Assembly (NCBI GenBank): GCA_020543525.1
Contig: JAHYIO010000030.1
Location: 186,001-250,000, forward strand
Direction of reading: 5' to 3'
Length of the DNA: 64,000 nucleotides
Source: Coriolopsis trogii
Lineage: Eukaryota; Basidiomycota; Agaricomycetes; Polyporales; Polyporaceae
The translations under genes were made by a program, and so were the position numbers. Positions 23,443-56,834 of this stretch are shown here, one piece after another (the stretch's first letter is position 1; each line of letters opens with the position of its first letter). A model generated the notes under the pieces. That model ran no database searches. It was not told the origin of the DNA and saw only the letters and a list, made by a program, of their open reading frames with translations.

Positions 23443-23749
23443 TGTGAGTCGAGTCAGGCTCGCTGGCAAACGAATGTGGGCTATGGTAGTCGGGCGGCCA
23501 CAATTTACGTGGCGAGGTAACGCGTCCGATAGGTATAGCCGGCCTTATCGGACTTGTGGTGTTATGTGACCTTGATGGCGCAATCTGATGACTAGAAAAT
23601 GAGGTAAAACAGTGCCTAACCCTTCATACGATCCTTTGTGCACTTACTGTATAGTGGTGGTGGTAACTTGAAGGCAAGCCGCACTGAAAGCCTGAGAGCG
23701 CCACGCATATGCATGGTGGGAACGCCCTGTTTGGAACCTGGCATATAAT
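23443..23749. other. intergenic, amidohydrolase promoter side
   Basis: About 0.3 kb lies between the start of the amidohydrolase gene and the tRNA gene. No exon or clear promoter element is recognised. Confidence 0.4.
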
Positions 23750-23820
23750 TCCGACACGGGGAATCGAACCCCGGGCTATCGCGTGAGAGGCGATAATGTT
23801 AGCCACTAAACCATATCGGA
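23750..23820 (-). tRNA. tRNA-Glu (anticodon CTC)
   Basis: The 71 nt gene folds as a cloverleaf. The 7 bp acceptor stem is TCCGATA with TGTCGGA; the anticodon stem ATCGC/GCGAT encloses loop CTCTCAC with anticodon CTC; the T arm is CCGGGGTTCGATTCCCCG. There is no intron. The B box GGTTCGATTCC is perfect. Two nearly identical copies occur at 38945 and 52288 on the plus strand; this one differs in the D arm (GGTTTAGTGG against GGTGTAGTGG). The flanks are not shared with the other copies. Confidence 0.95.
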
Positions 23821-35271: not shown

Positions 35272-35700
35272 GGGGACGCATTGGTTGCAGTAGCAGAACA
35301 CGCACCATGTGCACTCACGGGTGGCGGGGGTAGATTGAGACCCTCAGCGTTTCCGCGCCCGTGCGCGTTGTGCCCGGTGCAATGTCGTGAGTGAGGGTGT
35401 CGGCGGGGAGGTGCTTGAAGCGTCTGCGTATGTCAGAGGACAAGCGGGAGAGATTTAACACTTTACGCAGAGGTAGACATGCCAGGGCTGTAGCATGCTC
35501 GTCACTGCCTGACGCCGTCTGATCTGCGCAAGTCAGGACACACCTAGATGTTGTCTGATATACGCTCAAATATCTATATCAGTCGAGAAGTGGTGGACGA
35601 GAACAAGGGAGACGCGACTCGCCAAGGGTGAGTTTCACGTACCGCTGGGCCAGTTGGCGGACCCGAGCGCCGGCGAAGTGAATCCTCATGGCCACCACCC
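35272..35700. repeat. dispersed repeat, copy 2 (with 30928-31200)
   Basis: This has the same two sub-blocks as 30928-31200, in the same order and orientation, but with an insertion between them (about 35425-35580). Its neighbour is the truncated gene copy at 35005-35250. Confidence 0.6.
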
Positions 35701-37147: not shown

Positions 37148-37658
37148 CCGAATCCCAGCCACCGTGCTTTGCGCCTAGATCTCTTGACCTGAGATAGCGG
37201 AGGGCGTATGTGAGGGGTCAGTCAACAATGGCGATAAGCGTGCATGCCACGTACCTCCCGCAACAACCGGCAAAAAGGCAGGTATAATTTGGTACGAATG
37301 ATTTGACGATGAAGATGCGGGTGCTGGTCCAGGTGAAGAAGTGGTCGAGCGTTCGCGGTGTTGCAGAGCACTGGATATGTCAGGGCAACGTGGAACAATG
37401 ACCGAGCAAGGGACTGTGTTGTGGAAATCGTACCCAAGGTATGTTCGACCCACCTCATTCATTCACTGTTAGCACTCACCGTCGGGGTGATTGCATGTTC
37501 CCGAATGTCGCCTACTTATACACACGCAGCTCACGTCGGCGTTGGCACGGCATAAGAATGGCAGACAATAGCACAAACACAACAGGTACCAAATACACAT
37601 GAAGAGAAGCAAGGTGGTACGGAAGCACCCCAAGACGATCACTGTATGCGCCCCAACA
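37148..37658. other. intergenic, 3' region of the coiled-coil gene
   Basis: About 0.5 kb. The left boundary of segmental block I falls near 37515. No gene is supported; a small Leu/Cys-rich minus-strand frame (37469-37699) is probably an accidental extension past the stop of the next gene. Confidence 0.4.
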
Positions 37659-38770
37659 TCAGCCTGCGACGTCCCAGATTGCGCGAAGCCGAAGACCACT
37701 CACCCGAGTCGTCCCATTTTCCCCGTTCGCATGCCCGTTCGCATGCGCAGCCGCTGCTGCTGCTGCCGCCGCCGCCGCACCTCTCCCTCTCCCCCGACCT
37801 CGTCCACGCCCGCGCGCTCGACGAGGGGTGCCCTGTCCCCTCCTCGCAGGCTCCGGAGGTTGCCCGTGCTCAGCCGCGAAGCCTTGTACAACCTGAAGAT
37901 GCTGCTGCGGGAGAGGCTCCGTAGGCATCGGCTGGAGTGGCGGGGCGTGCACCATATGTGCTGGCGGCGGCGGCGGAATGTGTCCATGGGCATGTCCGTG
38001 TCCGTGCGCGTGCACGGGTCCGATTCCGGGTGGCGGAGGAGGGTATGGGTGAGGATGTGCGTGTGCGTGGGTCATAGGAGGAGCGGGATGCATCTGCGGC
38101 TGCGGGTGAATGGGGGGTTGCGCTGGCGGTGGGGGAGTCGGTGGGCTTGCTTGATGAATGGGCGCCGGAGGACCTTCTGTGCCACCGAGCGGGACGGGAA
38201 CGGTGTAGGAGTAGTATTGAGGTGGAATGGGGTCGCGTTCGAGGTAGTGCAGGAGGGTGGGCTGCGCGGGGACGGCGATGTCGACGGCATCAAGGAGGAG
38301 ACTAGTAGTGTATGGATCGTTGGTCAAGGAATGACCGAGAGGGAGGGTAGGATCACGTACTTGCACTCTTCCTGTAGTCGTTTCAACTTCTCGTCTGCGC
38401 GAGCCAGCAGGTGCTCCATCTCTGTATGCCTCTTGTGTACCCGCTCAGGACTATGCTTCGTCACGCAACGATACGTTCACGCACCGCTGTCACTTTGTCG
38501 TATCTCTCTCTCAAGGACTGAAACCTGAACATCGTCAATCACCCCTCACGAAACCGGTGGCCAGTCATCACGAACTTCTCCTTGTACCGAGGACCACGAT
38601 GGCCAGACATTGATGGCTAAGTATCGCTCAGCTAAGAATGCTATTCTCACGTTGACGATTTGCGAGATGCTCACCTTGAGGCCGCTTGCAGAAGGACCTG
38701 GGGTATTGGAGGGGCCTGGTGGGGGGACATAAGTCGCCAGGCTTGATGTTCTCGAGAGGTCGTCGGCCAT
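37659..38770 (-). CDS. coiled-coil, Pro/His-rich protein (possible INO80 subunit F-like), copy 1
   Basis: ATG at 38770; exon 1 ends at 38675 (32 codons, MADDLSRTSSLATYVPPPGP). One or two short exons follow carrying FQSLRERYDKVTA, with uncertain borders. Next comes RHTEMEHLLARADEKLKRLQ, joined by a GTACGT intron to EECNLLLDAVDIAVPAQP and TLLHYLERDPIPPQYYS. A long Pro/His region follows (HAHAHPHPYPPPPP), then Arg-Gly repeats, 11 Ala and HANGHANGENG to the stop near 37659. The helical part ending in LLLDAV resembles the INO80 complex subunit F coiled coil, which would make it a chromatin-remodelling subunit, but this is only a pattern impression. There is no membrane helix. A second copy is at 51029-52133 and a 3' fragment at 35005. 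Long plus-strand frames here are shadows of the GC-rich gene. Confidence 0.6.
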
Positions 38771-38944
38771 CGAGTATGCACTGTCAGACACAGTGATGTA
38801 GGCGTACTACGGAGAGTGAGAGTTACTCCAAGACCAGACAGTTGCAGACTGAGACGAGCACTGAACAAGCAACAACGCTAGCAGATAGACTCAACTGGTG
38901 TAAATTTAGACGCCTCATATTTTGGTTTGAAACTACACTAGGAA

Positions 38945-39015
38945 TCCGATATGGTGTAGTGGCTAACATTATCGCCTCTCACGCGATAGCCCGGGGTTCG
39001 ATTCCCCGTGTCGGA
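38945..39015 (+). tRNA. tRNA-Glu (anticodon CTC)
   Basis: The 71 nt cloverleaf has acceptor TCCGATA/TGTCGGA, anticodon loop CTCTCAC (CTC), T arm CCGGGGTTCGATTCCCCG and a GGTGTAGTGG D region. It lies between the coiled-coil gene and the first small hydrophilic gene of block I; its partner is at 52288. Confidence 0.95.
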
Positions 39016-39293
39016 ACTCCAGGATCTTCATATATCCTTTTTTGCGCATCCACCGCAGATATGATAACGTCCAAGCCAGGAGAAACTCTCCTCGCAAGAC
39101 AATTCGAAGAGTTGGTGTGCGACAGATATTGTACTTCGGTATATTCGGCGAGTCTCTATTGTACAACCTTTGAATATGCCAGTCATGCTGCATGCAACTT
39201 CGTCTAATCCTCGACTACTGGACCGTCAATTCCACGCGTCAAGGTCCGTAAAGTCTGCCTACGGGGGACAACTCGACATCATGCCATCAGAGT

Positions 39294-39787
39294 TCAAACG
39301 TTCGACCGGATCTGCCCACCCATGGCGTCGTTGCCCACCGTGCCCCCGTTGTTAGTGAGCGAACCCTGCGCGTTGCGGGGTGGAAGAGGTGGCTGCGCTG
39401 TCGTAGTCGTTGACGGGGAAGATGCAGCGTGACTCCCGCCTTCCATACGGGCGATGCCTTCCTCTGTCTGTTGGCGGCCGACTTGAGCTTCAGGGTGGCC
39501 GCGGGTGTTCGTGCCTGTGGCAGAGTCGACGAAGTCCATCGCGTTACCGCGGATGTTGTTGCCGATACCTGTGGGTGGGATCAGTGATCGGTTTCGGGCG
39601 GGATGGATGCGAGCGAGGGGCTGCCGACCTTGTACGGTCTCGAAAGCACCCCTGTTCGTGTTCGTGGTCAGTGCTTGTTCGCGAGCGAGAAACCAACATG
39701 TGGAAGTTCTTACTTGACTGCGGTACCGAGGCCTCCGCCGATAGAGCCGCCACGAGTGGTGCTTCCGTTGGTCGAGTTGGTAGTCAT
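39294..39787 (-). CDS. small hydrophilic fungal protein, family E, copy 1
   Basis: ATG at 39787, stop TGA at 39294, three exons. Exon 1 (MTTNSTNGSTTRGGSIGGG...AVK) joins exon 2 across a GTAAGA intron completing Lys. Exon 2 (GAFETVQ) joins exon 3 across a second intron completing Gly. Exon 3 carries GIGNNIRGNAMDFVDSATG, then HPEAQVGRQQTEEGIARMEG and a Ser/Thr/Pro-rich tail ending GGTVGNDAMGGQIRSNV. The product is about 120 residues, Gly/Asn/Gln-rich, with no membrane helix or signal peptide. The same plan (G-A-x-E-x-V-x-G-h-G-x-N-h-R-G, then an HPE/HTE-x3-GR-x3-E-x-GhA block) occurs in its neighbour at 40258. Function is unknown; composition suggests an abundant stress or hydrophilin-like protein. 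The duplicate is at 52597. Confidence 0.72.
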
Positions 39788-40257
39788 GTTTAGGGTATGC
39801 GTCGGGTGAATGTGCGGGTATTCTTAAAGACTTCAAGTTGTGGGTGAATGACGACTCGGAGCGAGGAGCTTGGGGCTTATATGTATGTGTGACATGGCGG
39901 GGACGCGGATTGCGCTGGTTGCTGCCCCACAGGAGTCATGACATAGTTGTGAGAACATCTAGGCATTCGAAGTGGAGTTGGTGCAGGTTTGGACCGTTTG
40001 GTACAGGTCGCCGTGAATGACGTATGCGGAGAGAGGAAGTGTAAGGAGTCAGGCGTCTACTCTACTGTATTCGGGCACTCTCGGCTGGGACTGATAACTT
40101 TAAGACCACCACCACCAGAAATGTGAGGAAAAAGAATCGTTAGCGGATGCAATTTGTATGTACAATTCCAACACTGCTGTTTGTATGCGAAACCCAAATC
40201 CCTACACGTTTCTGAAGGCAACGTTGTCAATGCAAAGTAAATGATCAAGCAGGCGGT
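39788..40257. other. promoter region of family E copy 1 and 3' flank of family F copy 1
   Basis: About 0.47 kb without a gene. It holds the TATA box noted separately. The half next to 40257 is strongly diverged from the matching part of block II (53091-53676), which contains extra sequence. Confidence 0.45.
39877..39883 (-). promoter_or_regulatory. TATA box of family E copy 1
   Basis: ATATAAG on the minus strand lies 90 bp before the ATG at 39787. The duplicate gene has TATAAA at the same distance (53174-53179). CATGTCACA just upstream is conserved in both. Confidence 0.6.
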
Positions 40258-40993
40258 TCACGCTAGCTGTTTCGGTTCTCCTCCAAGCTCGTAACGGTCC
40301 GGCGCAGGCCCCGTCTCGCTGCCTTGCTGCCGCGTCGCAAACTCGCGATTGTTCGACCCTCCGAAACCCGCGCCAGATTCAGGCGCACCACGCCCGCCTG
40401 CCGAGTACTGCTGCTGATACGGCGCCTCGGCGACCGCAGTCTCGGGACCACCGTTCCCGAACCCTGCAGACATGGCGCTCGACGGTCCGAGGGTGTTCCC
40501 TTCCTGCGCGAGCGGCGCGTCGCCGTACTCAGGGTTGGGCTGGTAGTGCGACTGCCATGAGTCGCGTTTCCCTGAGCCAGCTGACATTGCGGTGGCTGCG
40601 CCTGGTCCGCCGGTGAGCTTCGCCATGCCGCTTTCGACCTCGCGGCGTCCTTGGTGAGTTTCGGGATGTGGCGCTTTGCCTGTGTTGGTGGAGGAGTCGA
40701 GCGCGTCCATGAAGTGACCGCGGAGGTTGTCTCCGAGACCTGATAATATTGAAGAGTCAATATTCGTTACGTTAACGATGGAGTCCATAGGTACTCCAGG
40801 AAAGCGGGAGGAAATTGCACCGCACCATGAACTACTTCCGTTGCTCCCCTGCGAAACCATACGTTATCCCTCGCTGCTCAGCTGCATTTTGCACCAGAGT
40901 GTACGCATACCTCAGTTTCTGACCCACAGAGCCACCTCGCTTTTGTCCTGGGGCTGTTTCGACGTTGTTTGTGGTGCGTCCGATGCTGGACAT
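40258..40993 (-). CDS. small hydrophilic fungal protein, family F, copy 1
   Basis: ATG at 40993, stop TGA at 40258, three exons. Exon 1 is MSSIGRTTNNVETAPGQKRG to KLR. A 22-23 nt exon 2 encodes GATEVVHG. Exon 3 continues GLGDNLRGHFMDALDSSTNT, HPETHQGRREVESGMAKLTG and a long Gly/Ala/Gln tail with PYQQQYSAGGRGAP and PAPDRYELGGEPKQLA at the end. The product is about 195 residues. Exon 2/3 clearly parallels family E next door (GAFETVQ + GIGNNIRG), so E and F are ancient tandem relatives. There is no signal or membrane segment. The tiny exon makes automatic predictions prone to use the frame running through intron 2. The duplicate is at 53677. Confidence 0.74.
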
Positions 40994-41052
40994 AGTGCAA
41001 TGGTGATCGCTTAGGGATAGTATTGAGTGTGCTGCTCAGAACGGACGAATCC

Positions 41053-41058
41053 ATATAT
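41053..41058 (-). promoter_or_regulatory. TATA-like box of family F copy 1
   Basis: ATATAT on the minus strand lies 60 bp before the ATG at 40993. Block II has ATATC/GATATA at the matching place (54473-54478), 64 bp before its ATG. Confidence 0.4.
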
Positions 41059-42415
41059 GAGTGTCCGCAAGCGACTCGAGTCTATGACGAGATGGTGGCG
41101 GGTGGGGCTTGTGTCGGTGACGTCGGGGGAGTCGGGGTGAGGGTTAGGAGTATGACGACGATCCGGACAGAAGGTTGGCGCTGGTCATATGTTGCATGGA
41201 CTTGTTGCGTACTCACTTATCTTCGCGCTAGATTCTCCCTCTTCCCGCTCTTTCCCCCCGCGCGCGTGCGTGATTTAATGCTGGCTTTGCTGGCGCATCG
41301 CGTTCCTGAGCGTAACAGAGAAAGATCAGCGGCTGGAAAGCCGGGTATAGTGTAGTTGACGCTTTGCGTTATACCATATCCGAGTCCAGACGGCTCTGAC
41401 TGTGAGTGATCCATCTATTCTTCGCGAAGTCGACCTGTCGCGGCGTTATCAGTACTACAAATTCCATGACATACCAGAAGCACAAGGATGGGATTGCGGC
41501 ATTACCCCCGGCACAGAGGATAGCGCACAGGTTGTTGATTTGTCTCACCGACATGGTCGTGTCTGCAATCTCGGTCGCGGGTGAATACTTCAATAACAAA
41601 CCTACCAGTCGATGGAGCACCAAGAGCCACATCCGCTCAGACATCTTCATCTTGCATCATGTCTCACTATCGTGACGTTGCTCAAGGATGTCGCCTTCTC
41701 GCGCTTCTCTGAGACCGAATTTGCGCATCTGCGTACGAAGGACGTCTCGTGGTCCAGTGCGGTCGTCGAGAAGGATGACCTGGACCACTCTACGACGGGT
41801 CTCCAAGAAGATAAGCCATCCGGGCTCCGCGTCGCATCCTATTCACGAATGTAACTCTGTGGAGATAGCATCTTAGTGCCTTGCGAGAAGCCGCGGATGC
41901 ACTTACAGAATGGTATAAGTAGGAAGCCCTGAGCGAGCGTAACCTCCCACCCAATAAACACTGAAGAAGCCGCTCACTGCCCCACCTATGCATCGGAGAC
42001 CCGGAGCCGCCCCTCCCTCATCTTCTTCTCCATACGCGCCGCCCCGAACGACCGGATTACTGACAGGTGGTCTACCTTTGACATTTCAAGCCTAGCACGG
42101 ATCCATCTCCTGATTCACCCATTACGGAATTCCCTCATCGCGCTGATCTTTGTCGTCTGCACTGAGCCACACCACACGGCATAAAACGCAGTGCTGGAGA
42201 CGCAGCATATCGCGGCCTTCGCGCAGAGCGGCGCGCCGCCTATGATCGGACGACCAGCCAGCGGCATGCCGTTGGCGCGCGCACGCCGTTGAGTCCACAT
42301 TCCCGTATAAGAGGTGCGTGAACTGCCATGGTCTCTTTCACCACCCCCACCTACGATCTTTCTCGTCTTTCCACTTCTCGTGAACGACGCACACGCTCGT
42401 CTGCGTTCATCACAA

Positions 42416-42574
42416 CCGGGTGCACCCCGTGCCGATGTCCTTGGGCACCACACACTCGTGCCTCGCGAGGGCGCGCTCAGTTGGGTGCGCATCGCTTGCT
42501 GAGTCGTGGCGGCCGCAAGGATTGGTACGGGCGAATCTACCGGCTGCGGTGAACGCAGTGGCGACGTCGCGTCC
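42416..42574. repeat. near-identical core shared with 55876-56034
   Basis: Over about 159 bp I count only two or three differences between the two segmental blocks, while sequence just outside differs at many sites and has indels. Open frames exist on both strands (for example WRPQGLVRANLPAAVNAV on plus), but silent sites are as conserved as others. Confidence 0.75.
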
Positions 42575-43133
42575 GTCCGTCCTCCTCGCAGCGATGTCGC
42601 TGTGTCGATAGATGGGTGGACAGCCCATGGGGGCTGACGCTGGTGTAGTACGTACGTATTCTGCGCGATCGTGCTGCTCAAATGTTTGGAGGTAGCCATG
42701 GAGCGATGGACAGCACCTCGGTGGAGCGAGGGTGAGTAGGACGGAAGCAATGCACGCCAAACGCACCTTGTGGGCCTATGGAGAAGCTCGGCTAGGCCAA
42801 GGCCTCGTCGGCGAGAATTAGCTTCTTCAGGGTTGGCGGCGGGAACAGGGCGGGATAGGGAAAAGAGACACCAAGGTGTGCAGGCCGTCGGGCGGCGTGC
42901 ATGGATCATGGTGACAGGCATCGCATTGTAGGCGCACGCCGATGTAGCTATTGCCAGGATGAGATGAACGTCAGTCGAAATGCGGTATGAGGCAAATGAC
43001 AGGCTTAACGCTTGTGCGGTATCTCCTCGCAATCTCCTGAGACGAGACGCGTGAGTGTCAGGAGGCTGTCAAGCAACCGTGAGTGTGATTGACCCTTCCT
43101 CTTGCAGGGTTCAGGCCTGGATGTTCTCCCGAA

Positions 43134-46100
43134 TCAGTCGGGCAAGGGGCGAGGTGGAGATTGGGAGGTGAGCCTCAACTTCTTTGCAGGGTTAACTACG
43201 TGCCGCTGCAGGGTGTCGTTCTTTGTCTGGGTCGTGAAGGTACGATCATGAGGTCCTGCTGTCGAGGGGCAGCCTCCTAGCTGTCCACCGATCGCCCCGC
43301 AATCGCCACCAGGTATATGGGCGATTGTGACTAGCCAGTTGAGTGTCGCATGTTCTGGAGGTTCCGATTCTAAGTCATAAAGATATGATCGAACGGGCTT
43401 GACGGGCTGGCTGAAGAGTGTTGACAGGACCGCAGGGAGGTGAGGCGAATCGGCCTTGGCTGCATTGCATGTTAGACGCTATCGGAGGGGTGAAAGTCGC
43501 CTCCTTACTGATCATGTTCAGAGCGCCCATGACGTACTCGTCTTCGACTCGCGTAGGCAGAAGTGAGCTCTGCTTCAGCTGTAGCGCCGTCGGTCTCCTC
43601 TCAGGGTCGTGCTGCAAAAGCCATGTGATGACTTTGAGGGATCAAGTCAGAGGTGTCCAAGGATCCAACAGGAGTATAGACGTACTCTGCTTCTGTCGAG
43701 TACGCTTCGAATCCCAGTCGCTCGGGAAGTTGATGGTGGGGAGGCGCAGTTGTGGAAGTACATTGTACCTCTCGGAGTCCGTCTTAAACAGATAGTTCAT
43801 CTCGAAGAAAACAATCTGTAACATCCCGCTCAACGTGGACGTACGCCAGCATAGATAAACAGACACTCACACCCAGGCTATACATGTCGGCCTTGGCGCT
43901 GTTGGAATGCTTCTTCTTCTCAGATCCGTGCTTGCGTTCCATCTCGGGGGCCATGTATAGCTTCGTGCCAACGTCTAATGCAGAGCTTCAGTCTCGACTC
44001 TTGGCGAAAAGCTTGGCACTGTACCTAACGTGATCTCTTCGTCAAAATGGTCCTTGCGGGACTTGTCCGAGGGGTCGACGGCAGCCATACTCTCCGTAGC
44101 GAGACCGAAGTCTCCAACTGCGCGTGTGTAAGCGAGGCGCAATCGTAATCAGAGCAATAGACTATTACCTTTGCAGTCACCATTGGCATCTGCAAAGAAC
44201 AGTGTCAGCGGAACGCGAACTCAGAAGACAGACTTGTGGAGGACGAACCTACGAAGATGTTCGTCAATTTGATGTCCCTGTGAAGCTACGGTGGCTTGAG
44301 TCTAGCTATTCCGGCTAAATATAGCTTCGATACATCACTCACGATCCCGAGGCTGGACATGTGAATAAGCGCGTCCAGGATCTGGTGGAATAGCCGCCAA
44401 GCCTCTTCTTCATCCAAGCCTTCCGCGATTCGCTACGGAATAAGCTCTCGATGAATCCAAAAGCATATGAAGCTGACGAACCTCTCGCAACGTCTGCCTT
44501 TCGACAAATTCCTGTATATCACATGAGACCCAATACAGCGTAGAATATGAGCCAGAATATGTGAATGCGTACCATCTGTATGTATAACGTGCGTCGCAAC
44601 GACGGCGCCGGGCGAGGAGAAGGCTCTCTTCGCATGATTCCATTTCCCCTCCCCATGATATCGATGGGTCTGCCTTTGGGGACAAGAAACGGATCATCCT
44701 CGTCGTCGATGTCAAAGAGGTCATCGCTGCTTTCGCTGCCGTCATTGGTATCGTCGTTCTGGGAGCTCGTCCGAGAGAAGTGAATACTGGGGAAGGTGGA
44801 GGTACGACTCGTCCCACCGACAGAGTCGAGGTCCTTCAGGTCGTATGTCGTGAAGTGCCCGTCGTCGTCGGTGGAGCGCTTCGGCCGCGATGTCATACCA
44901 TCATTTGTCTTGTCCATCGTCGGCTCGGATTCTTCAGACTCTGATCCAGGATTGGGCAAGGGCGTAGCTTCCGAGGTTTCAATCCATGTCGTGTAGTAGC
45001 GCACGATGAAACGATGGTTGAGCCGACTTAACGCGCTGACCTCTCGGAAAATCTTGTCGTTCCCCACGTCGGTCAGCTTGATCTTCTTCACTAAATTGAG
45101 ACGGTCAGCACATCCGTCGTGCTATGTGATCTAGAACGTACCCGCGTATATCCTATTGTCAATCAGGTTCCTAGCTTTCACTACCTGGCCGAATCCTCCT
45201 CGTCCCTAGTGACCATCAGCGATAGCCCCATAATAGACATGTGTATAGCCCTTACGAGGATTTCCAGCTCCTCCCAATCTTCTTTCCATCTGCTCGCATG
45301 CCTCGTGGTCGGAGGCGGACGCGACAGGAAGTAATCGGTCTCGGGAGAGCCAACAGCAAAGCCGTTGACAGTCGGCGTCTTCGGCGCTGCGCCTTGTTGT
45401 CAAACTCTGATCCAACTATCTGATAGAGAGACTGCGTACCTGCGAATGGGATCGTCGGCGTACGGTTGTTCGCGGACGAAACCTGGGGCGAAGTGAGATC
45501 TGCCAGGAGGCTCTGACAAGTGACGCCGCTCTTCTTGTGTGGCGACAGCATGATCGCTGCCTTCTGAGACAAATGGATGGAGATAGAGGCTAATTCGCAT
45601 TGATTTAGTAGGACGGCTAAGGAGTCGAAGAGGCGACCTACAGAATCGCAAAGCCGTTTGTGGACCGGGGTAGCGCTCCATAACGTTCCGCCCTAACAAC
45701 ATCTGCAACAGTACAATCCCGACCGAGTGTATGTCGCGACTCTTGGTGTAATTGAGCTTGGACTCGAGTGGAGGCATCCTACAGCACCGGTGAATCTGGG
45801 ACATTGCCACACCATGCGAGTTCACTTACCATCCATCGGATACCGCGTCGTCGTCAACCTTGGGATCGGCGTTGAAGCCGAACGGGTCCGACCGATGCAG
45901 ATCGAGCAGCCGAACGTGGAAGCCTACCTTGAAGATCTTCACGGTTTTCGAAGGACCGCCGGAATCTTCTCTCGGCGCAAGTCCGATGCACCTGAGATTG
46001 AGGCCTGTAGGTTCTTAGCCAGCCTGCTATACTTCAACCGCTGAAGATAGCTACCTCTATGTACAATGTCTGCATGGTGAATTGAATGGAGGGCCGACAG

Positions 46101-46868
46101 TATTTGGCTGAGGTATTCCTGCGAATGGAGTTAAGTACACCGATTGACGGTGCTGTCTGCCTGAGTGACCCACAATAGCTCGCTCCTCACGCAGACACTC
46201 CGTGTCCTCGAGTACGTCATAGAGCGTCATGGAGGGACGCTGTTCGCTCAAGACCAGTAGACGTGGTGGCGAGTTGGCACTTGGGGTTGTCAACTTGGCG
46301 GCGAGTACGGCCAGGAGATTCGGGTGGCGTATGGACGTTAGGCGTTGAAGTTCGCTCTCGACCTGCTTGAGCTTCTTCATACCTGCATACGGTCAGACGA
46401 TAAGTTCCGAGGAGAGACATTTACGGACCTTGATTAGTCGTGTAGTAGTGAGACATGAAGGTGATAGATAGCATCTCGAGCCGCAAGCTCGTCAGGGGCT
46501 CGTCGCAAATCGGATCCGCTTGGTACACCGTTCCAAGGCATTCTGAAGTCTACATAAACTACAACCCCGCGAGGACGCAGCGCGCTCAAAACCTTACCTT
46601 GCTTTGGATGGAAGAGGCGTACGCGGTAGAAGGAGTGGCCTCTCCACTTGATCTCACGCTCAAAGGTCTCAATGGGAGTGGCGTCTTCTGACGCGGGTAC
46701 CTCCGTAGCGTCGGACAATGCGCGGCGTCGAGCCTGTTGAAGTCGCTCACGCTCGAGGAGTATGTGCCAAGAGACGAACAGAGATGGCGCCCACAAGTCA
46801 TTAGTCACTATTGCCCAATACAGAAGGTAGCGTGACTGCTCATCGCTCATTCGGGAGCTTGAGTTCAT
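43134..46868 (-). CDS. truncated GCN2-like kinase with new N- and C-termini
   Basis: An ATG at 46868 lies in unrelated DNA and reads in frame (MNSSSRMSDEQ ... VSWHILL) into GCN2 sequence at ERERLQQARRRALSDATEV. All of the pseudokinase and kinase follows: CLGTVYQAD, SQILSALHSIHHADIVHR, GRGGFGQVV, YAVKKIKL, LHRDIKLTNIF, GDFGLATES, KLYMAPEME. After the first residues of the HisRS-like domain (EHATLNWLV) it continues in frame into the duplicated block for about 65 residues (TIAHIPGGDCGAIGGQL) to a TGA at 43134. I found no frameshift or stop in the exons checked. Differences from the parent are mostly silent; amino-acid changes are mild (V/M, K/R, R/K, Y/H, D/G). RWD, most of HisRS and the C-terminal domain are missing, so GCN1 binding and tRNA sensing should be lost. 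About 900-1,000 residues if expressed. A pseudogene cannot be excluded. Confidence 0.65.
43329..46758. repeat. GCN2: duplicated internal segment of GCN2 (copy of 7868-11310)
   Basis: Colinear with 7868-11310 from TGACTAGCCAGTTGAG to CTCACGCTCGAG, including all introns, so it was copied as DNA and not through mRNA. Introns are heavily diverged; exons are close. Both edges are abrupt and lie inside coding exons. Confidence 0.92.
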
Positions 46869-47347
46869 CGCCTCTCTCGCCTCCAATCCCCAACTCGAAC
46901 GCCCATTGGCACGCTGTCTATTGTACCCCACACGCTCAGTAGACTTTCTACGCCTTTCCGTGCCTCGTTGTCAAACACGGGAGCGACGGGCGAGCACTCA
47001 CTCACGAGTCACACTGTAGCTGCTGAATACAAGCGACACCTCATCATCGCCCCCGGTGTTGGGACTAGGGAGCCGCTCGAGCAATTTTGAGGCTCAGTGG
47101 GCAAGGGCCATCACGTGTGTGGGTGCATGTCCTTCCTTTAGAATGTAGCTCTCATATAGGGCATTCTTGAATAGATCACTGTGGCGAAAATCAGTGATCA
47201 TATTGTTGATCTTGAAACCGCGCTCCGTGCATCTCTGGCACATTTCGTCTCAATCTGTTACAGGAAAGGTGTGTTGCTGCTCCGGCCACAATTCGCTATT
47301 GTAGAGTGTGCCGCTGTACAGGCTGTACTCATGGACGCTCAGCAGCA
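46869..47347. other. spacer between divergent GCN2-like and FunK1 genes
   Basis: About 0.5 kb of unique sequence. It should contain the promoter, if any, of the truncated GCN2-like gene (minus) and that of the FunK1 gene (plus). No clear minus-strand TATA box is seen near 46868. Confidence 0.4.
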
Positions 47348-47355
47348 TATAAATA
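47348..47355 (+). promoter_or_regulatory. TATA box of the FunK1 gene
   Basis: TATAAATA lies 75 bp before the ATG at 47423, followed by an A/C-rich leader (CCACCACCGG, ACAACAACCC). Confidence 0.7.
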
Positions 47356-47422
47356 CCATACCACCACCGGCCATGGAACCTACAACAACCCTACCTTCCT
47401 GTCCGTACTCTCTTCCTACAAT

Positions 47423-50076
47423 ATGTCTTTTTCTGCTGAACAAACCTCACCGAATGCCCCCCGTATATCAGCCTCCTCACGAGGCTTCGTAGGCGGCGGC
47501 AACAACTTCAACACCTCCAAGGAGTCTCGCCAAGAGATACGGCAGGATCTACGTACCAACACTTTCTACGATTGTGAAAGTGTTCTCAATGGGATCATCA
47601 ACATTCCCGGCTCGCCTCAGAGTGACTCTGCCCTTGTGACCAAAATCCTAAACAAGGTCAAGGAGGACCATGACCATGATCTACAAGTCCTTCAAACCGT
47701 CTCGCGCCAAAATATCAAAACTGGTACTCTTTCCGGAAATGAGCTTGAGGGCTTGCTAGGAAAATATGAAGTTGATATGTATCCTCCCTTGGTACGCATG
47801 CTCCTCTATTTGGCCATGTGTAGTTCTGACACCATCTGCCTCAGGCAAGGATCTTTCGTTGTATCGAGAAAACATGTGCAGATGAGGGTCGCCCCAGGGT
47901 ATTCTTCCGGCAGTTGATCTGCTGTGGTACGCGCACACTTACAGCGAACGATCCCGTGTCCCCGACCTCGTTCAACAACTTGAAACCTGATTTTCCGCTT
48001 TACGATCTTCCTCCTCCGATGGCAGGTTCTAATACTGCTCTAACGGACATCGTGGACGTGGAGGAATTGAAGACCGCGGGGATTCCTATCCACTGGCGCC
48101 GTTGTGCCGCATTCCTCGAGGTCAAGCCTACTGCTAAACTTTCTCCCCGTCCCGCTAGAATCAATAGTATCCGCCGTTCAGCAACGGTCAAGGAAACCCT
48201 CATACAGGGAGCCGAATATGCCCGCACCATCCTTGCCTCTCGCCCTCTAGATTTGTTTGTCTACGGTATCTTCATCTGCGGAATGTCTCTTACAGTCGCC
48301 AGGTTTGATCGGCGATGTGTCATGCTTTCCACGGAGGTCAAGGACATCTCTGCTGACAAGGGTCTCCCAACGCTGATTCGAGTAGTGCTGGCCTTTATTT
48401 GGAATCTGTCGCCCGTAGCGCTTGGTGGGGACCCTACTGTTACTTTGCACCCCACCTCCAGGCCTTTTGACAAGAAAGCTCCATTCCATCGATACGTCAT
48501 CAGACAACATCCCGAATCCGGGTCGCAGGAGTGGATCACCTCTGGACCACCCATTTGGGTCTCCCACTCTCTCTTCGGTCGGGCCACCTCAGTCTGGCGC
48601 GTCACAAATGCCCATGGCGAGGCGGCGATCATGAAGGTTGCGTGGCGATCTCCGGGTCGCATGTCGGAGGGAGATGCCTATATGCGAATGCAGCAGGCCT
48701 TCGAGGGCAAGGTGCCTGAGGGATTGGCAACGGCCCGGACTAGTTTCGATGTGATCCTCCAGGGTGGTGTACCCCTTACCATCCACGCACTTCGTGGCGC
48801 CAATCAGTCGAACGACTCTCGACTGGGGGACGATGCGTCCCTGCATAGGATCGTGCTTGCCGACTATGGTAAGCCCCTGTGGGAATCCAGAGACACGAAA
48901 CAACTTGCGCAGGCACTTGAGTCAGCACGCAAAGGTATGTCAAAGGGTCGTCAAAGGGTTATGAGTTTGCATTTTGGCATAATGTGCGGCGCAATGTTCA
49001 CCGTTACCCTCTCTGCACAGGTCTTGACGCACTCCATGTAAAGGGAATCCTCCATCGGGATATCAGCGCCGGCAACATCTTAATCAAGGTCAAGCCTGTG
49101 TGCATCGTCACTGAGAAAGCTACTGCAAACTCTCCGAGAGTGCTGGATGTCGAGTCCAGAGAGGTCGAGCCAACCCAAGCCTTCATCACTGACTTCGAGT
49201 TCGCATCATTCCCTCACCAGGAGACGAAGACTGTTTCCAAGGCTTCCCCCGTCTACTACATCTCAGATTCACCTGATCCCGAGAGCCATCCCCTCGTTGT
49301 GGAAGGGCAAAAGAAGTTTGTATATCAAGACGCTATTGAGCCCATTCCGGAGAAGAAGCCTGGAGATATTTTCACGGTAAGGCTTGTCGCCACATGAGAG
49401 TACCTGTGTTCCCATCTCTCACAATTATTCGCAGGGCACTGCTATCTTTATGGCCGAGCAAGTACTTAGGGCGTGGGCCGGGAATCAGAACCGCAAGATC
49501 CCGCGCACCAAACATCATGACAGAGAGTCGTTTGTCTGGGTCATAGTCTGGTCGATATCCAGATACGTGAAAGATCGTTCGCCCTGTCTCCGGAAGAAGG
49601 AACCACAGGACGAGTTCGTGGCGCGCACGGCGGTTTACAACAATGCCCTGGAAGAACGCCTGAAGCTGTTCTCCGCACACGATGTTCAGGGATTGCTCGA
49701 CCAACGCAGCGGTCGTTACAAAGAAAATCTCGTAGACGAAGAGTGCTTCGAAGAGACGTATCATGGCGTATACTACCTCCTCAGGTACATCAAGGAAAGC
49801 CTCCGGGATGAGGCGCTTGTTATCCTTCTCAAAGGCTCATGGGCTTATCTCAAGGCCTCGTGCGATGCCCCTGCACCCGCCCCCGCCGACATTTTCGACG
49901 AAGACAGAGTTGACAAGTCTCGGAAGGCGGCTCGTACGGCACTTAAGGAAGCGGCACTCGAAGCGGCATGGGTCAAGTTCATGGATTGCCTGGAAGGGAC
50001 TGTACACTTGGCCGAAGGAGGCACTCGTGAGAGCTACCAGGCTCTCCGGGCGGCACGGGAGGCATCTCGACCTTGA
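47423..50076 (+). CDS. FunK1-type fungal protein kinase, complete
   Basis: Four exons, 47423-47791, 47845-48934, 49021-49376 and 49435-50076, give 2,457 nt and 818 residues. FunK1 kinases are an expanded, fungus-specific eukaryotic-kinase group. N-terminal residues 1-350 form the variable FunK1 N-region. The kinase starts near residue 360 (SLFGRATSVWRVT as degenerate glycine loop, AAIMKVAW with the ATP-binding Lys). ILHRDISAGNILI (residues about 495-507) is the catalytic loop, and FITDFEFAS (about 541) replaces DFG with DFE, which is normal for FunK1. TGTAIFMAEQVL and HHDRESFVWVIVW complete the C-lobe. All key residues are present, so activity is expected. The C-terminus is helical and ends in ASRP without an acidic tail. 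No signal peptide or membrane helix. It precedes segmental block II just as the C-lobe fragment at 35867 precedes block I. Confidence 0.9.
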
Positions 50077-51028
50077 GTGTAGCGATTTGTGTGCGAGAGT
50101 CCCGTAGCAATGCATATGACCCAAATATGATCAGTTCGCCGATTCTAGCACCATTGAGGTCGATGTAATACTCAACTTGCTGGTCCAAGCCAATGGCGTG
50201 GAAGCAGTGTTATCATAGCCTATTACGATTGCCGTGTTGCTCGTATCTGGCAGAGCTGTTATACCAATCGCGAGCCACTCGTCCCCTCCCTGGCAGGAGG
50301 CCGACGTCCGGCTCGTAGATGAGCAATAAGAGTGACTGTGTAATAGCGTGTACTTGAGTAATCAGCGCGATGCTCGTGAGGCACTCAATGGCCAAGCGCC
50401 GTTAGAAGGCAACCCTTTTGAAGACGGGACTCACCTGTATATTGGAAAGACAACGGAAGCCACACGTCGCATACATGGACTGGTTGAGACGAGTTAGCTG
50501 GTGTGGCTTTCTCAGCGGTGCGAGAGGCGCGGACATGTAGTTGGTGATCATGGCTCCGACCCAAATGCGAAAGTCTTGGACCAACATATTCCTAACATAC
50601 ATGCAGGCCATGGCCCAGTCACTCATGGCATATCGAGCAGGAGCGAGCGAAAGTTACGGCGGATAAGGGCATAAGCCGAAAAATCATTTGCCCTACAGCA
50701 GAAAATCCGCGAGGTACCGCTGCCGAGCAATTTTGAACCGAGTACAACCATATTGCACTACTGGCGCAACGAACTTCTAATGCAGGTGATGCGAGTTCAG
50801 ATGTTTCGACAGTTGAGCAGTATCCACGCACGTAGCAGGACTCACGAAGTGATCCGACAGTAAACAGTCCCGGACGCCCGTCCAGTCATGGACACGCAGC
50901 ATGCGTCGGCGTCGGCACAGCATAATAATCGCATATAATAGCACAAACACAGCAGATGCCTGATACACATGAAGAGAAGCAAGGTGGTACGGAAGCACCT
51001 CAAGACGATCACTATATGCGCCCCAACA
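50077..51028. other. spacer between FunK1 gene and block II gene
   Basis: About 0.95 kb. A minus-strand stretch directly after the kinase stop (about 50090-50188) reads VEYYIDLNGARIGEL, similar to the start of the shared domain of the 16496 gene (TEYYINFNGCNIG). It has no ATG and no continuation that I can join. Segmental block II begins near 50882. Otherwise nothing is recognised. Confidence 0.4.
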
Positions 51029-52133
51029 TCAGCCCGCATCACCCCAGATTGCGCAAAGACGAAAATCACTCACTCGGATCGTCCCATTTTCTCCGTTCGC
51101 ATGCCCGTTCGCATGCGCAGCCGCTGCTGCTGCTGCCGCCGCACCTCTCCCTCTCCCCCGGCCTCGTCCGCGCCCGCGCGCCCGACGAGGGGTACCCTGT
51201 CCCCTCCTAGCAGGCTCCGGAGGCTGCCCGTGCTCGACCGCGAACCCGTGGACAGCCTGAATGTGCTGCTGCGGGAGAGGTTCCGTAGGCACCTGCAGTG
51301 GCGGGACATGTACCATATGTGCCGGCGGCGGGGGCGGGATGTGTCCATGAGTGTGTCCGTGCCCGTGCCCGTGCCCGTGCGCGATTCCGTGTGGTGGAGG
51401 CGGGTAAGGGTGGGGATGTGCGTGTGCGTGCGTCAGAGGAGGAGCAGGATGCACTTGTGGCTGCGGGTGAATCGGGGGTTGCACGGGCGGTGGGGGAGTC
51501 GGTGGGCTCGCTTGGTGGATGGGCGCTGGGGGACCTTCTGTGCCACCGGGCGGGACGGGTACGGTGTAGGAGTAGTACTGGGGTGGAATCGGGTCTCGTT
51601 CGAGGTAGTGGAGGAGGGTGGGCTGTGCTGGGACGGCGATGTCGACGGCATCAAGCAGGAGACTACGTAGTGTAAGGGTTGTTGGTCGAGGAATGACCGA
51701 GAGAGAGAGAGTAGAATAACGTACTTGCACTCTTCCTGTAGTCGTTTGAACTTCTCGTCTGCGCGAGCCAGGAGGTGCTCCATCTCTGTGTGCCTCTTGT
51801 GTGCACGCTCAGGACTATGTTTCGCCACGCAACAATATGTCCACGCACCGCTGTCACTTTGTCGTATCTCTCTCTTAAGGACTGGAACCTGAACATCGTC
51901 AATCACCCCTCGCGAAATCGGTGGCCAGTCATCACGAACTTCTCCTTCTACCGAGGACCACGATGGGCAGACATTGATGGCTATGTATCGCTAGCTAAGA
52001 AAGCTGTCTTTGAGTTGACACAATGCGGAATGCTCACCTTGAGGCCGCTTGCAGAAGGACCTGGGGTATTGGAAGGGCCTGGTGGGGGCATATAAGTCGC
52101 CAAGCTTGATGATCTCGAGAGTTCGTCAGCCAT
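51029..52133 (-). CDS. coiled-coil, Pro/His-rich protein (possible INO80 subunit F-like), copy 2
   Basis: ATG at 52133 (MADELSRSSSLATYMPPPGP). It has the same exon plan as the 37659 gene: FQSLRERYDKVTA, RHTEMEHLLARADEKFKRLQ, EECNLLLDAVDIAVPAQP, a Pro/His region (HAHAHPHPYPPPP), Arg-Gly repeats, 9 Ala (11 in copy 1), HANGHANGENG and the stop near 51029. Coding differences are few. Two candidate donor sites that read GTTTCG and GTGAGG in copy 1 (around 38560) are ATTTCG and GCGAGG here (around 51915). One short upstream exon may therefore be spliced differently, or a GC-AG intron used. The INO80 subunit F assignment is a tentative impression from the coiled coil only. Confidence 0.58.
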
Positions 52134-52287
52134 CGAGTATACACTGACAGAGACGGTGAGGTGGGTGTGGAATTGCTTGCGTACTACAGAGAGTGAATGA
52201 GAGCCACTCCAAGACCAGACAAGCGAGAACGCCTCAGTGAGACTTCATAATATGAGCTATGAATATAATTTGTGTCCTATATTGTCA

Positions 52288-52358
52288 TCCGATATGGTGT
52301 AGTGGCTAACAGTATCGCCTCTCATGCGATAGCCCGGGGTTCGATTCCCCGTGTCGGA
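52288..52358 (+). tRNA. tRNA-Glu (anticodon CTC)
   Basis: 71 nt; differs from the 38945 copy at only two positions, both in or near the anticodon arm (AACAGTATCGCC; loop CTCTCAT). Anticodon CTC, acceptor TCCGATA/TGTCGGA and the T arm are intact. It sits at the equivalent place in block II. Confidence 0.95.
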
Positions 52359-52596
52359 ACTCCAGAATCTGCATGCATCCTTTTTGCGCAACTGCCGCAC
52401 AGGATGACACCACCAGAAGATACAGTATAAGACGGCTACTTCTATAGGCGGCCGCGGCGAATATATATTACAATGTACAAGCTTTGAGTATGCCAGTGAT
52501 GCTACATGCAACTTCGTCCCTTGACTACTGGACATTTCCACCCATGGTCCGTAAGGCCTGCCTACGAGAGACAACTCGACATCTTGGCATCAGACT

Positions 52597-53090
52597 TCAA
52601 ACATTCGACCGGATCTGCCCACCCATGGCGTCGTTGCCCACCGTGCCTCCGTTGTTCGTGAGTGAACCCTGCGCGTTGCGGGGTGGAAGAGGTGGCTGCG
52701 CTGTCGTAGTCGTCGATGGGGAAGATGCAGCGTGACTCCCGCCCTCCATACGGGCGATGCCTTCCTCTGTCTGCTGGCGGCCGACGTGAGCTTCAGGGTG
52801 GCCGCGGGTGTTCGTGCCCGTGGCAGAGTCGACAAAGTCCATCGCGTTCCCGCGGATGTTGTTGCCGATGCCTGTGTTCAAGATCAGTTATTGGTGTTGG
52901 GCAGGGAGGCAACGAGCGAGAGGCTGTTGACCTTGTACGGTCTCGAAGGCACCCCTGCTCGTGTTCGTGGTCAGAGCTTGTTCGCGAGCGAGGGAGCGTC
53001 CCATGGGAATGCTTACTTGACAGCGGTACCGAGGCCTCCACCGATAGATCCGCCACGAGTAGAGCCTCCGTTGGTCGAGTTGGTAGACAT
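52597..53090 (-). CDS. small hydrophilic fungal protein, family E, copy 2
   Basis: ATG at 53090, stop TGA at 52597, the same three-exon structure as the 39294 gene. MSTNSTNGGSTRGGSIGGG, GAFETVQ, GIGNNIRGNAMDFVDSATG, HPEAHVGRQQTEEGIARMEG and GGTVGNDAMGGQIRSNV are nearly identical to copy 1, whereas both introns differ at many positions. This pattern points to purifying selection on both copies. About 120 residues; function unknown. Confidence 0.72.
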
Positions 53091-53676
53091 GATTAGGGTA
53101 ATAGGGTATGCGTCGAGTGAATGTGCGGGTATTCAGGAAAATTTCAAGATGTGGCAGGATGGCGAGGAAGCAGTTTATATGTGACATGGTGGGGACGCAG
53201 GCTGTGCTGGTTGCTGCTCCACCGGAGTAATGACATAGTTGTGAGGCCATCTAGGCATGGGAGGTGGAGTTAGACAAGTTTAGTGGGTCGCACAACGGTG
53301 TATGACGTATACATGCGGGGGGGGAGATGCTGTGATCAAGGAGTCAGGCGTCTACAATACTGCATTCGGACACACTTGGGGACGGGCCGTATCCCGGCCG
53401 TACGAGGCGGCATGCAAGTTGATTGAAGGACCGAATAGGATGAGCGAGCTCTTTGAGAAAGCTGACTGAGACCCGAGAGGAGAAAACAATGAGGTAGGAA
53501 TATCTTCAGGCAGAGAGCGGCTGGTGAAGACTAGTGATACATGTCATTCATTATTCATGGCTGAAGTACAATTGGTATACACAACTCCGACGCCGGGACT
53601 CTGCTTTCCGTTGTGAAATCCGTATCCCTGCACGTTTCTGGACGCAACATTCTCAATGTACAGGAAAGCAGGCGGT
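53091..53676. other. promoter region of family E copy 2 and 3' flank of family F copy 2
   Basis: About 0.59 kb without a gene. It includes the TATA box noted separately and, near 53320, a G-run (nine G). Sequence next to 53676 differs strongly from block I. Confidence 0.45.
53174..53179 (-). promoter_or_regulatory. TATA box of family E copy 2
   Basis: TATAAA on the minus strand, 84 bp before the ATG at 53090; position conserved with block I. Confidence 0.65.
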
Positions 53677-54409
53677 TTAGGAGAGCTGCTTCGGTTCCCC
53701 TCCAAGCGCGTAACGGTCCGGAGCAGGCCCCGTCTCACTGCCCTGCTGCCGTGTCGCGAAGTCGCGGTTGTTCGACCCCCCGTAGCCCGCGCCAGCTTCG
53801 GGCGCACCGCGCCCGCCCGCCGAGTACTGCTGTTGATAGGGCGCCTCAGCAACCGCAGTCTCGGGACCACCGTTCCCGAACCCTGCAGACATGGCGCTCG
53901 ACGGTCCGAGGGCGTTCCCTTCCTGCGCGAGCGGCGCGTCGCCATACTCAGGGTTGGGCTGGTAGTGCGACTGCCACGAGTCGCGTTTCCCTGACCCAGC
54001 TGACGTTGTTGTGGCTGCGCCTGGTCCGCCGGTGAGCTTCGCCATACCGCTCTCAACCTCGTGGCGTCCTTGGTGAGTCTCGGTGTGCGGCGCTTTGCCT
54101 GTGTTAGTGGAGGAGTCGACGGCGTCCATGAAATGGCCGCGGAGGTTGTCTCCAAGACCTGAGAAGACCGAGGATCAGTACCGTTACGTGAGTGAGATGG
54201 TGATACTCCAAGGAAGCGAGACGAATTCAATACGCACCATGGACAACTTCGGTTGCTCCCCTGCGGCATCATATGGTACGTTAGCTATCACCACTCCAGT
54301 GAAAAGGGCTTGGAGTGCTGACATACCTTAGTTTCTGGCCCATAGTACTACCGCGCTGTTGCCCTGGGGCTGTTTCGATGTTATTCGCGTTACGTCCGAC
54401 GTTAGACAT
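53677..54409 (-). CDS. small hydrophilic fungal protein, family F, copy 2
   Basis: ATG at 54409, stop TAA at 53677. Exon 1 MSNVGRNANNIETAPGQQRG to KLR, tiny exon 2 GATEVVHG (donor GTGCGT), exon 3 GLGDNLRGHFMDAVDSSTNT, HTETHQGRHEVESGMAKLTG and the Gly/Gln-rich tail ending RYALGGEPKQLS. About 194 residues. Most differences from copy 1 are silent or conservative (L/V, R/H, E/A), and the introns are unlike. Both genes keep the tiny exon and the splice phases. Family and function as for copy 1: an unnamed, hydrophilic, probably disordered fungal protein related to family E. Confidence 0.74.
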
Positions 54410-55635
54410 GTTGTTGAAACGGCAATGACTGGATGCAAGTTAGAGGGTGTCTTGGTAGATCGCTTATGCGGGATATAAGATGTCCGTGGGCAACTCGTGT
54501 CAATGACGAGATGGTGGTGCGGTTGACAAGTGGGGCCGGTGTCGGAGCCTCTGACAGTCTCAGGGAAGATACGAAGTTGCGTACCTAGAACACGGTGCTG
54601 GACGGGGTTAGGGGTATGATGACATTGGGTGCAAGGTCGGCGCGCGCCATTCATGGCAATACCACAGTTGTGCCTGCATCGCGTTAGCTTCTTTCTCTTC
54701 CCGCTCTCTCCCCATACACACGCATGCGATTCAATGCTGGGTTTTGATTGTGGCATTGCCATCAGTCAATAAGCGTAAGGCAGAGAAGTCAGCGGCGCCA
54801 TTGCCCGTTGACGCCTTGAACTGTATCAGTTCCGAGTCCGAATGGTCCAGCGGTGAGTGATACACGCCTTCTTCATGAAATTGAGCTATCTCAGCGTTAT
54901 CGGTACTACAAATTCCATGACATACCGGAAGCGCACGCTCCACGAGCGGCGTCACTCCGGGCATAGTAGCTCACGCACCAGTTGCTGGTCAGTCTCAATG
55001 GCGTGGTCGTACCTCAGGCTCCTACTTCGCTCGCAGGTGTGAAATGTACAGTACGTACCAGATCATCGAGCACCAGGGTGCTTGAACATGTTCAACTTAC
55101 ACCATGTCTCGCGATCCTGGCGTTACTCAACGATGTCGCCTTCTCGCGCTTCTCTGATAGCAATTCCCGTATCTGCGCCCGAAGAAGGTCTCGTGGTTCA
55201 AAGCGTTCGTCGAGAACGCTGTCCTGGACCACTCTACGTCGCAATGCCCGAAGATAAGCGTCCCGGGCTCCGCGTCGCATCCTTTTCATGGATGTCTGTC
55301 AGAGGAGATAGCATATTAGTGCCTTGCGAGAAGCCGCGGAAGCACTTACGAAACGATACAAGTAGGGAGCTCTGAGCGACCGTAAGGCTCACGCCCAACG
55401 GACGCTGGAGCACTGCCAGCGGTTGCTCCCCACCTTTCCGTCGGAGACTCGGAGCCGCCCCTCCCTCATCTCCGCGTCTTCTTCTCCATGCACGTCGCCC
55501 CGAGCGACCGGACGGACGACAGCTGGACTACTTTCGACATATCCAGCCTAGCACGGATCCATCTCCTGATTCACCCTTTACAGAATGCCCTCATCGCGCT
55601 GATCTTTGTCGGCTGCGCTGAGCCACACCACACGG

Positions 55636-55643
55636 TATAAAAA
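55636..55643 (+). promoter_or_regulatory. possible TATA box of an unknown plus-strand transcript
   Basis: TATAAAAA lies about 240 bp before the near-identical core at 55876-56034. Block I has CATAAAA at the matching place (42180). It would point to a plus-strand transcript; no coding exon is certain. Confidence 0.35.
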
Positions 55644-55875
55644 CCCGCTGCTGTTGTATCGTGGAGACGCAGCATATCGCGGCTCTTGCAATCCCTATAC
55701 GCACAGCAGCGCACCGCCTATGATCGGACCTGCGCGCACACCGTTGAGCACAGAGTCCCGTATTAGAGGTGCGTGGGCTGCCGTGTTCTCTTTCACCACC
55801 TCCCCACATGACCTTCTCGTCTATCCACATTGTCTTAAACGACACAACGCACACGCTCGTCCGTGTCCACAACAG

Positions 55876-56034
55876 CCGGGTGCACCCCGTGCCGATGTCC
55901 TTGGGCACCACACACTCATGCCTCGCGAGGGCGCGCTCACTTGGGTGCGCATCGCTTGCTGAGTCGTGGCGGCCGCAAGGATTGGTACGGGCGAATCTAC
56001 CGGCTGCGGTGAACGCAGTGGCGACGTCGCGTCC
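55876..56034. repeat. near-identical core shared with 42416-42574
   Basis: Partner of the 42416-42574 element; see there. In both copies one plus frame ends GRKDWYGRIYRLR followed by TGA. Confidence 0.75.
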
Positions 56035-56834
56035 TCCCGTCCTCCCCGCGGCAATATCGCTGTCCTGTCAGACGGGTGGATAGCCCATTGGGGCTGACTC
56101 ACTGCGGTATTGAAGTAGTACGTACGTATTCTGCGCGGTCGCGCTGCTCGAACGTCTGGAGGTAGACATGGAGCGATGGACAGCACTTTCATTTCGGTGG
56201 AGCGAGGGTGAGTAGGACGTAATCAGCGTATGCCAAACACACCTTTGAGCCTCCTCTGGAGAAGTTCGGCTAGGCCTTGAAGGCCAGAAGTAGCTTCTTC
56301 AGGGATAGCGGCGCGTATAGTGCGGGATAGGGAAGAGAGAGACCCAGGCATGCAGGCCGTAGTGCTGCGTGCATGGATCATGGTGACAGACATAGTATTG
56401 TAGGCGCACGTCGATGTATCTATCGCCGGAATGAGATGAACGTCAGTCAAATTGCGATATGAGGGAAATGACAGGCTTAACGCTTAGGCGGTATCTCCTC
56501 GCAATCTCCCAAGAGGAGGCGCACGAGTGTCAGGAGGCTGTCAAGGAACTGTAACTGCAATTGAGTAGACGAGAATTGTGGGGATTCTTCCTCCTGCAGG
56601 GTTCAGGCCTGGATGTTCTCCGAATCAGTCGGGCAAGGAGTGAGGTGGAGATTGGGAGGTGGACCTGAACTTCTTTGCAAGGGTTAACTACGTGCCGCTG
56701 CAGCGTTTCGGACGTCTTATAGTTCCCAGAGCTGTTGGTCATGGTCATGAGGCTCGGATGTCGAGTGGCGGCCCAACAGCTGTCCACTGATCTCCTCGCA
56801 ATCGCCACCAGTTATATGGGCGATTGGGTTGCGA

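Follow-up and report, generated by a model that had tools for sequence, protein, structure and literature searches.

A truncated GCN2 paralogue with recruited ends and parent-identical edges near full-length GCN2 in Coriolopsis trogii

In the eIF2alpha kinase GCN2 (EIF2AK4), the RWD domain binds GCN1, the HisRS-like domain binds uncharged tRNA, and the C-terminal domain binds the ribosome and itself. Sd-RanGAP of the Drosophila Segregation Distorter system is a truncated duplicate of a conserved gene near its parent, and the baculovirus protein PK2 resembles a truncated eIF2alpha kinase and acts on such kinases of its host. Here we describe a truncated GCN2 paralogue in the fungus Coriolopsis trogii, located in a stretch of 64,000 nucleotides (positions 186001-250000 of contig C27 in a 38.8-Mb assembly of 39 contigs; hereafter the window). 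Like Sd-RanGAP, the GCN2 copy is truncated and lies near its parent, but it keeps a kinase module rather than a GTPase activator; unlike PK2, which is a viral partial kinase, it is cellular and has complete pseudokinase and kinase domains.

The closest described class is that of partial and chimeric gene duplicates (Katju 2012, PMC3449122), in which an internal fragment of the parent, duplicated at the DNA level, acquires unique open-reading-frame ends, as in the present copy. Cited there is the Drosophila gene Hun, which probably arose by partial duplication of Ballchen and recruited about 33 residues. The tail of the GCN2 copy comes from a second duplicated segment, so that by the terms of that paper it falls between two classes, partial duplicates with recruitment and chimeric duplicates, and it differs further from the classes in that paper by a silent divergence of 0.34, a pairwise ratio of replacement to silent divergence (omega) of 0.019 and edges identical to the parent. 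A literature search by titles and the beginnings of abstracts, partial in coverage and no proof of absence, found no report of a truncated GCN2 duplicate in fungi or of a truncated eIF2alpha-kinase decoy.

Comparison of the window with itself by BLAST paired positions 7868-11309 with 43328-46757 on the same strand at 87.5% identity over 3452 columns, which bears out a first-pass annotation, made from the letters of the window, of an internal GCN2 piece of about 3.4 kb near its parent. The copy (43134-46868, minus strand) lies 31 kb beyond the full-length gene (12125-5749, minus strand), and the elements of the pair are the following.

5749-12125, minus strand: full-length GCN2, the parent; hand-built model of 30 exons and 1589 amino acids, with one HisRS intron uncertain
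43134-46868, minus strand: truncated GCN2 paralogue; hand-built 19-exon model of 928 amino acids, matching Pfam Pkinase with an E-value (E) of 4e-62
43329-46757, minus strand: segment shared with parent positions 7869-11309, comprising the linker, pseudokinase, kinase and start of the HisRS-like region; 3.43 kb
46868-46598, 46542-46429, 46382-46174, 46118-46055, 46004-45830, 45778-45642, 45589-45440, minus strand: exons 1-7 of the copy
45386-45256, 45205-45142, 45090-44573, 44511-44482, 44432-44343, 44285-44249, minus strand: exons 8-13 of the copy
44189-44169, 44117-44025, 43974-43871, 43815-43686, 43631-43509, 43459-43134, minus strand: exons 14-19 of the copy
46758-46868, minus strand: recruited N-terminal 37 codons, with the ATG at 46866-46868
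43134-43328, minus strand: C-terminal tail of 64 codons and a stop, read from copy 1 of a segmental duplication

The frame of the copy is open over 928 codons up to the stop at 43134-43136, GT..AG ends are kept in 18 of 18 introns in both parent and copy, and the stop or frameshift that might have lain in exons not checked at first is absent from the 19-exon model. We confirm that the copy is a DNA-level duplicate of an internal piece of GCN2 and carries no disabling change. An origin as a retrocopy is ruled out, all 18 introns being present; a pseudogene by decay is likewise ruled out, there being no disabling change and only 12 replacements and one codon gap (a constraint that is pairwise and not branch-specific). 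Among the 69 genome matches listed for GCN2, none outside C27 and a redundant contig, C16, exceeded 48% identity.

The in-frame fusions that had been proposed for both ends, to an ATG from unrelated DNA and to about 65 codons of a segmental duplication, were found as 37 codons and as 64 codons plus stop, respectively. At the DNA level the recruited N-terminal sequence had no other match in the genome apart from C16, and its 37 amino acids matched no Pfam family; at the other end, the shared part stops after LNWLV and is followed by 64 foreign residues. In the parent, the N-terminus matches Pfam RWD (E 1.4e-18) and the C-terminal part matches HGTP_anticodon2 (anticodon-binding; E 3.8e-38), and the HisRS-like core, which matched no Pfam family, was placed by position. 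Compared with fungal and animal GCN2, the copy lacks the RWD, the HisRS-like domain beyond its first residues and the C-terminal domain and has foreign tails at both ends, and because these domains are missing it is not a GCN2 orthologue.

What the copy shares with GCN2 is the pseudokinase, the kinase, the catalytic residues, the activation-loop threonines and the kinase insert. The pseudokinase precedes the kinase and has HRGLN where HRD is expected, and the kinase motifs first listed as intact are all present (GRGGFGQVV at residue 418, YAVKKIKL at 437, LHRD at 652-655, DFG at 673-675 and APE at 710-712). An alignment with solved GCN2 chains (best E 1.4e-84) covers residues 79-813 of the shared part, running from the pseudokinase as far as the beginning of the HisRS-like region. 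In this alignment the catalytic Lys440, HRD 653-655 and DFG 673-675 match the solved positions, Thr700 and Thr705 fall on the activation-loop threonines, and Arg406/Asp410 corresponds to Arg..Asp in the two best chains and to Arg..Glu in the third.

Over 827 aligned codons, parent and copy show 163 silent and 12 replacement differences together with one in-frame codon present only in the parent, so that 815 of the 827 aligned residues are identical. This extends to the whole piece the initial remark that nearly all differences are silent, and the V-to-M change then cited is among the 12. The corresponding silent divergence (dS) is 0.34 and the replacement divergence (dN) 0.0064; the resulting omega of 0.019 is far below 1 and is a property of the parent–copy pair that does not resolve the copy's own branch. 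The introns, which had been called scrambled, are instead about 25% diverged and alignable, and since their divergence of 0.31 (Jukes–Cantor, JC) is close to dS, silent sites evolve like introns and look neutral. Replacements are absent from the kinase lobes, where 72 codons have changed silently (22 in the N-lobe and 50 in the C-lobe); with domain limits set by eye, the linker and pseudokinase have 8 replacements and 52 silently changed codons, the kinase insert 4 and 24, and the remainder 0 and 8. The 95% upper bound on the 12 replacements is 20 over 1885 sites, which means that an unconstrained period would cover at most about 3% of the divergence. Changed third positions (n = 155) carry G/C at 97 sites in the copy and at 75 in the parent, without drift towards A+T.

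The divergence is unevenly placed. The piece is a mosaic of a diverged middle and two edges identical to the parent, a point that the first-pass annotation had missed.

46591-46757, minus strand: 5' edge, 167 bp without a difference from the parent; no change in the first 60 degenerate codons (exact P 1e-6)
43329-43394, minus strand: 3' edge, 66 bp without a difference from the parent; no change in the last 21 degenerate codons (exact P 0.009)

Taken together, the two edges give an exact P of 6e-9, with 155 of the 786 degenerate codons for the same amino acid changed (156 with the one-codon gap placed otherwise), and the longest unchanged run inside the diverged middle is 28 codons. With such a mosaic, some of the silent divergence could predate the insertion. 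Two histories fit the pattern: later conversion of the edges of an old duplicate, or one exchange that placed a diverged GCN2 middle in a fresh duplicate. Over codons 58-805, silent change increases with distance from the 5' edge (one-sided permutation p 0.008), and a comparison of the two sides of codon 240, a boundary picked once the data had been seen, gave 27 of 175 against 129 of 534 changed codons (p 0.016). This gradient leans to later edge conversion, and the simplicity of a single event leans to one exchange.

The single exchange is the core of the main rival, which we regard as possible and on balance doubtful. In it the copy is a young, possibly functionless insertion, and the silent divergence is older than the insertion, having built up while two lineages of full-length GCN2, one of them from a divergent haplotype or a hybridising species, each evolved under normal selection. 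The edges would then come from the resident gene and the middle from the divergent one, through template switching or conversion of a fresh duplicate, and the frame would be intact only because there has been too little time for decay. All of the 12.5% difference does lie inside the parent-identical edges, one exchange in a fresh duplicate suffices to place it there, an omega of 0.019 is presumably what full-length orthologues of a conserved kinase would show, and the termini look accidental. The young insertion nevertheless requires a donor at dS 0.34, and by itself it predicts neither the inward gradient of silent change nor the similar dS of the adjoining duplication described below. No second full-length GCN2 appeared in the assembly among the 69 matches above. 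Haplotypes of a hyperdiverse species such as Schizophyllum commune could differ at dS 0.34; the 39 exon-level hydrophobin matches of the present genome exceed the number of hydrophobin genes in that species.

Identical edges of 167 and 66 bp could also lead an assembler to swap the middles of two loci or to make false joins, and the assembly does contain an apparently chimeric contig. Contig C16 (19.9 kb) equals window positions 38723-56039 at 99.99% over 17.3 kb, both junctions of the GCN2 copy included, and then continues for 2.6 kb into different DNA, most of it 99% common with contig C13 and AT-rich at its end by eye. As a second haplotype it is ruled out by the 99.99% identity and the C13-like end; it is probably redundant and chimeric, perhaps assembled from the same reads, and gives no independent support for the junctions. 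Even so, C16 does repeat both of them, and an assembly in 39 contigs would suggest long reads, which would span such short identical edges. We consider an assembly artefact very improbable.

The second point overlooked at first is that the GCN2 piece abuts exactly on a segmental duplication of similar silent divergence.

37522-43327, no strand assigned: copy 1 of the segmental duplication, whose right end adjoins the GCN2 piece without a gap
50892-56826, no strand assigned: copy 2, in direct orientation; the duplication measures 5.8-5.9 kb

Two coding-like stretches of the duplication have dS 0.317 (omega 0.19) and 0.371 (omega 0.20). As these values, from the clearest stretches, are near the 0.34 of GCN2, they suggest that the duplication and the GCN2 piece may have arisen together, for example by the insertion of DNA from two templates between 37521 and 46758. 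The DNA after copy 2 and the DNA beyond the GCN2 piece showed no similarity to each other. Mismatch between the two duplication copies averages 18.4% and ranges from 7% to 40% by window.

Mismatches in windows of three open minus-strand stretches of copy 1 (37659-38444, 39294-39935 and 40258-40863) show codon periodicity, and none of the three stretches matched a Pfam family. The right-hand kilobase of the duplication (42078-43210 compared with copy 2) is only 11-16% diverged, possibly through conversion or as a conserved non-coding stretch; the open stretch 42115-43068 has an omega near 1, and windows at 40953-41790 are 26-40% diverged. Each duplication copy contains a tRNA-Glu(CTC) (38945-39017 and 52288-52360), and a third lies at 23749-23820 on the minus strand.

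The explanation that we favour, without going so far as to call it probable, is that the copy goes back to an old partial duplication of GCN2, recruited its ends from other DNA, was kept by selection and later had its edges overwritten by conversion from GCN2. Repair of a break would have placed a copy of the internal 3.43-kb stretch of GCN2, with its introns, at a site whose start lies 35 kb from that of the original; copy 1 of the 5.8-kb segmental duplication would probably have come in through the same rearrangement. The flanking DNA would have supplied the piece with an ATG, and the duplication with a tail. The open frame and the low pairwise omega are consistent with purifying selection on the copy since then. 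The identity of the edges points to later short ectopic conversion from the parent over both of them, and the inward rise of silent change is what one would expect of conversion recurring from the promoter side; that the breaks might lie on this side is suggested by analogy with meiotic polarity.

Several points weigh against this old, selected duplicate. The in-frame ends are not improbable and add little evidence for function, because at 36% of random window points an ATG is reached upstream in frame before any stop, and at 17% the tail is open for at least 64 codons. Low omega binds the pair and not the branch of the copy, and the identical edges would also suit a young insertion of DNA that had diverged beforehand. 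Conversion at both edges requires two events, and in the introns the trend away from the 5' edge does not reach significance (p 0.19). The lower dS of two further open stretches of the duplication, 0.202 (omega 0.57) and 0.151 (omega 1.0), leaves equal age not firm. Finally, pairing of the copy with GCN2 may be weak, since the C-terminal domain, which it lacks, is the only domain essential for dimerisation of full-length Gcn2.

For the product, published domain work offers a guide. In yeast Gcn2 the kinase domain is inherently inactive: it relies on its neighbours, requires an N-terminal HisRS segment and is stimulated by the pseudokinase; isolated kinase domains self-interact, the full-length protein depending for dimerisation on the C-terminal domain (PMC4014428, PMC4335047). 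Multi-domain autoinhibition of GCN2 is reviewed in PMC6824675. Given these requirements, the activity expected of a pseudokinase–kinase module is low and blind to the signal, and mixed kinase dimers with GCN2 might occur. The copy, without the parts that bind GCN1, tRNA, the ribosome and itself, would be such a module of low basal activity, and kinase-to-kinase pairing with full-length GCN2 could shift the set-point of eIF2alpha phosphorylation. That it is a separate pseudokinase–kinase core gene, kept over about 0.34 silent substitutions per site, with a promoter region in common with the neighbouring FunK1 gene, acting in trans to tune the amino-acid starvation response and exchanging with its parent at the two edges only, is an extension that we put forward as speculative.

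Strong constitutive activity or a pure decoy role would be possible and less likely than a low-activity module. An active, strongly deregulated eIF2alpha kinase would fit the kinase lobes free of replacements and the effect of deleting the C-terminal domain, which raises the basal activity of human GCN2 about 20-fold (PMC6421407) and activates mouse GCN2 (PMC4335047). The HisRS N-terminal segment that the yeast kinase domain needs is lost here, however (PMC4014428, PMC4335047), in human constructs lacking the HisRS-like domain activity stayed at the basal level (PMC6421407), and strong constitutive eIF2alpha phosphorylation would be expected to slow growth; we regard this outcome as quite improbable. 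Hardly better placed is a dominant-negative decoy that would compete through mixed kinase dimers or by occupying eIF2alpha. The whole kinase is kept, with its Arg406/Asp410 pair, and isolated kinase domains do self-interact (PMC4335047), yet the C-terminal domain, missing from the copy, is the one domain without which full-length Gcn2 cannot dimerise (PMC4014428, PMC4335047), and a pure decoy would have no need of an unchanged catalytic site. The interpretation in the first-pass annotation is therefore partly supported: the sensor domains from whose control the product was said to escape are missing, the option of a constitutive eIF2alpha kinase is weakened by the Gcn2 biochemistry, and a signal-blind kinase of low activity or a heterodimerising modulator would remain.

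If maintained and expressed, the copy would be a natural experiment on the GCN2 pseudokinase–kinase core without tRNA and ribosome sensors, a question that the cited papers approach through engineered mutants and truncations. The mosaic of identical edges, diverged middle and constrained protein is useful, too, for telling a partial duplicate under long-standing selection apart from a diverged allele captured recently.

The copy faces a kinase gene of another type, head to head.

47423-50076, plus strand: FunK1-type fungal kinase gene (PF17667), start inferred by eye

The match to FunK1 (Pkinase_fungal, PF17667) is clear at 47830-49041 (E 6.3e-25), and weak matches below the curated cut-off occur at 49381-50076 (E 7.1e-4) and 61148-61828. 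Apart from C16, the FunK1 block showed no other DNA-level match in the genome. Taken with many short introns and the hydrophobin matches, the FunK1-type matches would indicate a basidiomycete genome. Its ATG, read by eye, is separated by 554 bp from that of the GCN2 copy, an arrangement in which a divergent promoter common to the two genes is possible. The wider region is rich in local duplications, among them a direct repeat at 27926-29253 and 31514-32832 (about 76% identical) and a repeat pair at 30930-31067 and 35275-35414 (87% identical). Hydrophobin matches in the genome number 39 at exon level.

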